Below are positions 3,216 to 3,640 of a stretch of DNA of 64,000 nucleotides, one piece after another. Origin of the DNA: Hirudinaria manillensis (Eukaryota; Annelida; Clitellata; Hirudinida; Hirudinidae). Numbering within the stretch: position 1 is the first letter of the stretch; the number at the start of each line of letters is the position of its first letter. The notes beneath the pieces were generated by a model. The model was not told the DNA's origin. It ran no database searches and was given only the letters and a program-made list of their open reading frames with translations. Where the stretch lies: positions 10,588,501 to 10,652,500 of the forward strand of contig CM067530.1 in the NCBI GenBank assembly GCA_034509925.1, given 5' to 3'. A program made the translations under genes and the position numbers.

Positions 3216-3288
3216 ACTCTCAGATTCAATTGCGTTGGGTGAATTCTCATCAAGGTATTATGACCCGAAAGATGAATCATCACTGAGT
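3216..3288 (-). ncRNA. Box C/D snoRNA, array copy 1
   Basis: On the minus strand: terminal stem ACTC/GAGT, box C GTGATGA (3277-3283), guide ATCTTTCGGGTC (3262-3273), box C' TTGATGA (3247-3253), conserved block CACCCAACGC, box D CTGA (3220-3223). The guide is complementary to GACCCGAAAGAT of large-subunit rRNA. With the D' box at the CATA that follows the guide, the five-nucleotide rule points to the G of ACCCGAAAG, which I believe is the position of yeast 25S Gm805. The boxes are canonical. Confidence 0.9.
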
Positions 3289-3358
3289 ATCTAACCATCT
3301 GAGATAAACTCCATATACTTGTTAAATATCTATCAATAATCTGATCACCAAAACCAGT

Positions 3359-3434
3359 AACTCTCAGATAAGTTTGCGTTGGGTGAATTCTCATCAAGAA
3401 AATTATGACCCGAAAGATTAATCATCATAGAGTT
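3359..3434 (-). ncRNA. Box C/D snoRNA, array copy 2
   Basis: Terminal stem AACTC/GAGTT, box C ATGATGA (3422-3428), the same rRNA guide ATCTTTCGGGTC, box C' TTGATGA, conserved block CACCCAACGC, box D CTGA (3364-3367). All boxes are canonical. The terminal stem differs from copy 1 but still pairs. Confidence 0.9.
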
Positions 3435-3463
3435 AAATCTACCAAACAAAAACGTTACAAATA

Positions 3464-3537
3464 TGCTCTCGGCAAAAAAGCGTTGGGTTATTCTCAGCAT
3501 CTGAATAAGACCCGAAAGATGTAATCGTCATAGAGCA
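3464..3537 (-). ncRNA. Box C/D snoRNA, array copy 3 (degenerate boxes)
   Basis: Terminal stem TGCTC/GAGCA and the same guide are intact. Box C reads ATGACGA (3525-3531) and box D reads CCGA (3469-3472), each one base off consensus, and the C' region is weak. This copy may be inactive or poorly assembled. Confidence 0.75.
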
Positions 3538-3561
3538 AAATGAAAGAATTTGTTAATGCCA

Positions 3562-3640
3562 CGTTTCTCAGAAAAATATGCGTTGGGTGATATTTCATCA
3601 CGATATATCAGACCCGAAAGATGGAATCCTCACAGAAACG
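3562..3640 (-). ncRNA. Box C/D snoRNA, array copy 4
   Basis: Terminal stem CGTTTC/GAAACG, box C GTGAGGA (3627-3633, one base off), guide ATCTTTCGGGT followed directly by a perfect D' box CTGA, box C' GTGATGA, conserved block CACCCAACGC, box D CTGA (3568-3571). This copy fixes the D' position for the whole array. Confidence 0.85.

Follow-up and report, generated by a model that had tools for sequence, protein, structure and literature searches.

The snR39b-type guides are box C/D snoRNAs which, in the openly accessible parts of the sources, are listed in several kingdoms (PMC2780460, PMC2656528). In yeast, snR39b guides methylation of Gm805 of the large-subunit (LSU) rRNA, as given in the available text of PMC2806949. 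The accessible entries for yeast snR39b, N. crassa CD47 and P. falciparum PFS8 point to the same target G as the snoRNA array described in this article (PMC2806949, PMC2780460, PMC2656528). These guides, including plant snR39BY, carry one name per species in those entries, whereas four adjacent copies occur at the locus described here.

The genomic organization of snoRNA genes differs among lineages. One snoRNA per intron is given as the animal rule in the available part of PMC1821038; several snoRNAs per intron are described for plants and Plasmodium (PMC2656528, in part) and intronic clusters for rice and Drosophila (PMC2780460, in part), the Drosophila clusters being spread mostly across different introns of one host according to the accessible text of PMC5932544. 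A related animal system is the Drosophila DmSnR60 a-d set (Me28S-G1083a-d) of minifly/Nop60b, where four C/D snoRNA paralogues sharing one set of targets are likewise gathered at one locus; the host gene is protein-coding, and its 3'-UTR introns hold the snoRNAs (PMC1821038, in the sections available). Unlike the array, DmSnR60 a-d are placed one per intron, use both D' and D as guides and are directed at the snR60/U80 site, according to the same sections (PMC1821038).

In addition to the guide, some C/D snoRNAs contain a second element complementary to rRNA. Changing the accessory element of yeast snR13 lowered methylation, and the extra pairing of U18 had no role in methylation efficiency in an artificial construct, both according to the accessible part of PMC5389607. 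Accessory pairing was also suggested for vertebrate SNORD53 and SNORD92 (PMC8522698, in part). The openly accessible literature yielded no report of accessory pairing in snR39b or of a four-copy snR39b array; the 2011 paper that defined extra base-pairing may list snR39b.

This article describes a cluster of small RNA genes in a 64,000-nt stretch of DNA (the window), on the minus strand from 3640 to 3214. Four box C/D snoRNA units of 76-79 nt each were recognized (Table 1), all arranged in the order 5' stem, C, guide, D', C', second conserved block, D and 3' stem. They are separated by 24, 29 and 70 nt from stem end to stem end (23, 27 and 67 nt between modelled units). The array is interpreted with good confidence as four paralogous methylation-guide snoRNAs with a D' guide for the snR39b/Gm805 G and an accessory guide, being tandem duplicates that would be cut from a common precursor; we infer their expression, the methylation, the use of the accessory guide in the cell and the common precursor from the features set out below. 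The type of RNA is an ordinary and known one and its target is well supported; the packing of the four copies is tight, and an accessory guide is likely.

Table 1. Features of the snoRNA array and the neighbouring protein-coding gene, in positions of the 64,000-nt window.
Feature	Positions	Strand	Details
Unit 1 box C/D snoRNA	3562..3640	-	stem CGTTTC/GAAACG; C GUGAGGA 3627-3633; D' CUGA 3608-3611; C' GUGAUGA 3595-3601; D CUGA 3568-3571; sub-gathering SNORD2 match
Guide, unit 1	3611..3624	-	14 nt complementary to LSU; final C doubles as first base of D'
Accessory guide CCCAACGC (predicted), unit 1	3580..3587	-	8/8 complement of LSU GCGTTGGG
Unit 2 box C/D snoRNA, altered boxes	3463..3538	-	stem TGCTC/GAGCA; C AUGACGA 3525-3531; D' CUUA 3506-3509; C' AUGCUGA 3494-3500; D CCGA 3469-3472
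Guide, unit 2	3509..3521	-	13 nt complementary to LSU
Accessory guide CCCAACGC (predicted), unit 2	3480..3487	-	complement of LSU GCGTTGGG
Unit 3 box C/D snoRNA	3358..3435	-	stem AACTC/GAGTT; C AUGAUGA 3422-3428; D' CAUA 3404-3407; C' UUGAUGA 3391-3397; D CUGA 3364-3367; sub-gathering ceN70 match
Guide, unit 3	3407..3418	-	12 nt complementary to LSU
Accessory guide CCCAACGC (predicted), unit 3	3376..3383	-	complement of LSU GCGTTGGG
Unit 4 box C/D snoRNA	3214..3290	-	stem ACTC/GAGT; C GUGAUGA 3277-3283; D' CAUA 3259-3262; C' UUGAUGA 3247-3253; D CUGA 3220-3223
Guide, unit 4	3262..3274	-	13 nt complementary to LSU
Accessory guide CCCAACGC (predicted), unit 4	3232..3239	-	complement of LSU GCGTTGGG
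NUDIX-domain gene (partial; exons by eye; NUDT7/8-like by eye)	4438..5288	-	Pfam NUDIX 26.9 bits, cut-off 21.1, on window:4844-5035

The hallmarks of box C/D guides are found in the array, namely C (RUGAUGA) and D (CUGA) boxes near the ends, a terminal stem and, directly upstream of D', a guide of at least about 10 nt complementary to rRNA. Units 3 and 4 show the canonical C and D boxes; C is changed once in unit 1, and unit 2, which is off consensus in C, D', C' and D, has one change per box. In the kink-turn layout of box C/D, the altered bases of C and D occupy the stem-II U.U pair, which is U.U in units 3 and 4, G.U in unit 1 and C.C in unit 2, so that the sheared G.A pairs would be kept in all four units. 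The terminal stems are paired in 16 of 16 cells of the four-row alignment, two of the four core pairs being changed on both sides and the other two invariant. Among 500 shuffles, 14 matched the covariation score and 14 the percentage of paired cells, 58 had at least as many doubly changed pairs and 135 at least as many pair types; as the counting measures are often reached by shuffles and the pairs are few, the support from stem covariation is real but thin. An initial annotation of this DNA had described four units at this place on the minus strand, 24-70 bp apart, with one guide and covarying closing stems. The placement, the spacing and the shared guide were borne out and the covariation was recovered with two compensated pairs, although it rests on few of them. 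The C/D identity, the stems and the target G of that description also stand; it had overlooked that the guide acts through D' rather than D, as well as the second invariant block and the altered boxes of unit 2.

Pairwise identity among the units is 69-85%, and units 3 and 4 are the closest (85%), so that the units do not amount to four independent lines of evidence. A covariance model derived from all four matched only these four in the window, as expected by construction, with the lowest score for unit 2 (74.5 bits; 91.7-97.9 bits for the others). With unit 3 as the query, a DNA-level search of the whole genome (148.4 Mb) returned this locus only, with two matches (units 3 and 4). The copies would have arisen most likely by local tandem duplication.

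No Rfam family reached its gathering score on the array among 27 matches up to E 10. The lowest E-value was obtained by ceN70 (RF01652) on unit 3 (23.2 bits, E 0.019; gathering 65 bits), and SNORD2 (RF01299) matched unit 1 with 22.3 bits (E 0.14; gathering 37 bits). These scores alone prove little, because comparable values are obtained with further C/D models (snoR160, 24.5 bits, E 0.29) and bxd_1, an unrelated model, reached E 0.17 on the other strand, presumably by chance. The guide core is held in the consensus lines of both ceN70 and SNORD2. SNORD2, which we take to be human snR39b, shares the guide core CAUCUUUCGGG with the array, but its consensus has no CCCAACGC between C' and D. Caenorhabditis ceN70 has in common with the array the guide AUCUUUCGGG, a degenerate D' (CAUAA), the C' box CUUGAUGA and AcCCA just after C', the D' and C' boxes being shared specifically with units 3 and 4; nine model positions are hidden in the alignment, and the likeness covers the guide, D', C' and AcCCA.

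The guide 12-mer ATCTTTCGGGTC is present in all four units, and the guides are exact complements, over 12-14 nt, of a fragment of LSU rRNA from the same genome, which reads GAGCGTACGCGTTGGGACCCGAAAGATGG. In every unit the base paired with the G of ACCCG in LSU ACCCGAAAGAT is the fifth one upstream of D', and this register is identical in spite of the different D' boxes (CUGA, CUUA, CAUA and CAUA in units 1-4). Calculated guide:rRNA duplexes range from -17 to -22 kcal/mol. The snR39b site, the G of LSU ACCCGAAAGAT, is a well-supported predicted target, at which the D' guide of each unit would direct 2'-O-methylation. The same G had been proposed at the outset as the counterpart of yeast Gm805 and snR39b; the complement occurs in the LSU fragment of this genome and the yeast site is given in the accessible text of PMC2806949. 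Drosophila Gm1083 was considered as the same site and ruled out, since it corresponds to the snR60/U80 site. Across the 148.4-Mb genome, 17 occurrences of the 12-mer were counted (seven for the reversed-pattern control): four in the array, one in the LSU fragment and 12 elsewhere. Not one of the last group is preceded within 20 nt by a C box or followed within 75 nt by CCCAACGC.

The interval between C' and D contains the sequence ACCCAACGC, invariant in the four units. Within it, CCCAACGC is complementary at eight of eight positions to LSU GCGTTGGG, the eight bases immediately 5' of ACCCG (L005:1495-1502 in the fragment of the same genome), and guide and block overlap by one rRNA base. The conserved block ends 7-8 nt before box D and is therefore not a D-box guide; a second target through box D was ruled out as well, the 7-8 nt before D being unconserved and the block too distant from it. 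The block is most likely an accessory guide ("extra base-pairing"), as predicted from its complementarity. It resembles snR13, U18, SNORD53 and SNORD92 in being a second rRNA-complementary element near the guided site, here with eight of eight matches to the LSU fragment of the same genome in all four units. Guide and accessory block would clamp 19-21 contiguous rRNA nucleotides, with the accessory pairing immediately 5' of the guide's target; the calculated accessory duplex is -13.5 kcal/mol.

When the C'-D interval of unit 4 was shuffled, an 8-nt match to the 22-nt rRNA stretch ending in ACCC arose in 0.2% of 200,000 trials, and a match anywhere in the 163-nt fragment in 2.7%. The same eight rRNA positions match at 5, 4, 5 and 5 of 8 in four other LSU stretches (L001-L004). 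These are all the hits of collection scans by the guide-target word, so the presence of the word in them is no test; L002-L004 are eukaryotic LSU according to Rfam, and L001 is short, lies at a contig end and has no gathering match. The flank of yeast 25S, CTGTTGGG, matches at 6 of 8 positions, and hence such a flank is not peculiar to this lineage. The LSU fragment (about 164 nt; L005:1480-1643; G000:C1:12356408-12356571) is dispersed, was the only place found with this region of the rRNA and is probably a relic, so that the flank GCGTTGGG is assumed for the working 28S; the clamp model expects GCGTTGGGACCCGAAAGATGG in the 28S of the species.

A different reason for the conservation of the second block would be the fold of the snoRNA itself. 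The ACCC of ACCC(AACGC) and the GGGU of the guide would close a stem around D' and C', and the remaining complementarity to rRNA would arise incidentally from GGGACCC, a near-palindrome of the rRNA. GGGU and ACCC are indeed paired in the minimum free energy (MFE) folds of units 1-3, and the stem accounts for the invariant A before CCC, which rRNA pairing does not explain. On the other hand, it accounts for ACCC alone and leaves the invariant AACGC aside, and it is absent from the MFE fold of unit 4. The whole hairpin was equalled or exceeded in stability by fractions of 0.18, 0.19, 0.09 and 0.99 of the shuffles in units 1-4 and its inner part by 0.16, 0.18, 0.02 and 1.0, so that a conserved internal hairpin between D' and C', which beats shuffles only in the inner part of unit 3, was discarded. 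The pairing of ACCC with GGGU within the snoRNA follows from the near-palindrome in the rRNA. This explanation is considered unlikely in place of an accessory guide; as modelled, the internal pairing could nevertheless act as a switch or be the reason for part of the conservation.

It may also be asked whether all the copies are functional. One or two units could be active and the rest, unit 2 in the first place, young pseudogenes that are alike by recent descent; the four altered boxes of unit 2 (Table 1) and its lowest model score are in line with such decay. However, unit 2 has kept the guide, the accessory block and a perfect 5-bp stem in spite of a divergence of 26-31% of aligned positions (gaps counted) from the other units, and its changes in C and D hit both partners of the kink-turn stem-II U.U pair, all of which makes decaying duplicates rather improbable. 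That the units merely resemble snoRNAs, by chance or as a low-complexity repeat, has a negligible probability: the window is rich in simple repeats, yet the ordered C, guide, D', C', accessory block, D and stem recur in four of four units with two blocks exactly complementary to rRNA. Besides, a strict C/D scan of the window gave three candidates and none in the reversed control, unit 1 being the only one of the three with a 6-bp stem and an exact D' box. Lastly, each unit could be an independent gene with its own snRNA-type promoter, as the three neighbouring U4 genes have such a promoter element. A PSE model was built from seven distinct U4 promoters, whose own training sites score 16.2-27.0; since false-looking hits reach 18.4 elsewhere in the window, the model errs towards finding sites. 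Still, no U4-type PSE was found in the array, in the spacers or in 1 kb upstream, the best scores being 2.0 within the array, -8.2 or lower in the spacers and -0.1 upstream, and independent promoters are very improbable.

Transcription of the four paralogous guides from one precursor is likely, as judged from the layout of the locus: separate introns with their exons could hardly be fitted into such short gaps, and a U4-type promoter was found neither in the array nor in 1 kb upstream. The polycistronic precursor suggested in the initial annotation can accordingly be retained as a likely inference. Its view that such packing is unusual for animals agrees with the one-per-intron rule stated in the available part of PMC1821038, but the packing is less unusual than supposed in view of the clusters described for plants, Plasmodium, rice and Drosophila, as far as the accessible sources go. 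The polycistronic or same-intron clusters of plants, yeast and Plasmodium and the intronic clusters of rice and Drosophila likewise hold several closely spaced snoRNAs on one strand; in the accessible descriptions they mostly join different snoRNAs, whereas four copies of one are joined here.

The NUDIX gene shares the strand of the array, which its stop codon precedes by about 0.8 kb, and this gene is a possible, putative source of a read-through or 3'-UTR-intron precursor. No strong splice donor was detected between the stop codon and the array (best 4.0 or less); for comparison, two donors of the NUDIX gene score 8.4 and 7.8, and a third one, assigned by eye at minus 4716, just 2.1. The precursor may be a read-through product, an intron or an independent transcript; a strong donor for a host-gene intron was not seen, but the low score of that third donor limits the weight of this negative result. 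An acceptor-like TTTTCAG at minus 3194, a TOP-like CCTTTTCCT at minus 3744 and ATTAAA at minus 2805 and 2660 occur near the array, all of them short consensus matches.

The array provides a clean and testable case of accessory rRNA pairing, in which two blocks matched to a single contiguous stretch of rRNA have been preserved in four paralogues that have otherwise diverged. The rRNA beneath the accessory half is variable from lineage to lineage, so that compensatory evolution can be sought directly. The very tight packing of one snoRNA occurs in an animal whose genome is rich in U3 and U4 copies, and the nature of the precursor is an answerable question. On a more speculative note, a single guide might have given rise to a compact polycistron outside introns, with four units all selected for the bipartite clamp, the accessory half tracking the lineage-variable flank and the guide half being fixed across eukaryotes; copy number would then raise the dose of the clamp as a chaperone of LSU assembly as well as a methylation guide. 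This scenario is regarded as doubtful.

Small RNA genes are abundant around the array and in the genome at large. Three tandem U4 snRNA genes are located at 1081-1222, 1676-1817 and 2355-2496 of the window (minus strand), and at least 41 U4 matches were counted genome-wide; a single array on the same contig, with a spacing of mostly 365-373 nt, accounts for 31. An element near AAAACACC[CT]C lies about 60 nt upstream of the U4 RNA start (minus strand 1284, 1879 and 2558, and U4 loci L026-L032 and L034) and is a candidate for the PSE of this lineage. U3 snoRNA matches number at least 50, many in tandem, with one run on C11 at a spacing of about 2 kb. Since the U4 and U3 matches are numerous and many are tandem, local amplification of small RNA genes is common in this genome, and the copy number of the snoRNA array may simply reflect it. 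Five relatives of U14 were matched, all below the Rfam cut-off; four are spaced by 0.8-0.9 kb, much wider than the units of the array. The strict C/D scan of the window, run for more snoRNAs against the partial rRNAs L002 and L004 and the LSU fragment of the same genome, gave two weak candidates besides unit 1, at 34626-34704 (plus strand) and 47172-47120 (minus strand); the scan is insensitive, as it overlooked units 2-4.

Several protein-coding regions are found in the window. An intronless open frame of 735 codons for DHX15/Prp43 is located at 19586-21793 (plus strand); two relatives are 88-89% identical, and the named animals among the matches listed 66-77%. In a midpoint-rooted tree of 32 DHX15 sequences (31 of the 120 matches listed and that of the window), the window sequence grouped with two others beside a nematode and a tardigrade (support 0.985, with long branches), a placement that would make an ecdysozoan possible. 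In yeast, the release of snR39b from pre-ribosomes needs Prp43, according to the accessible text of PMC2806949; the position of DHX15, the animal Prp43 homologue, 16 kb from the array is taken as a coincidence. An LBP/BPI C-terminal domain occurs at 348-881 and an A20-type zinc finger at 10644-12389 (both plus strand), and a rhodanese domain at 44441-45487 (minus strand) has only two relatives at E 1e-5 or better. The region from 49000 to 63000 is dense in ATT/ATA and other short tandem repeats.
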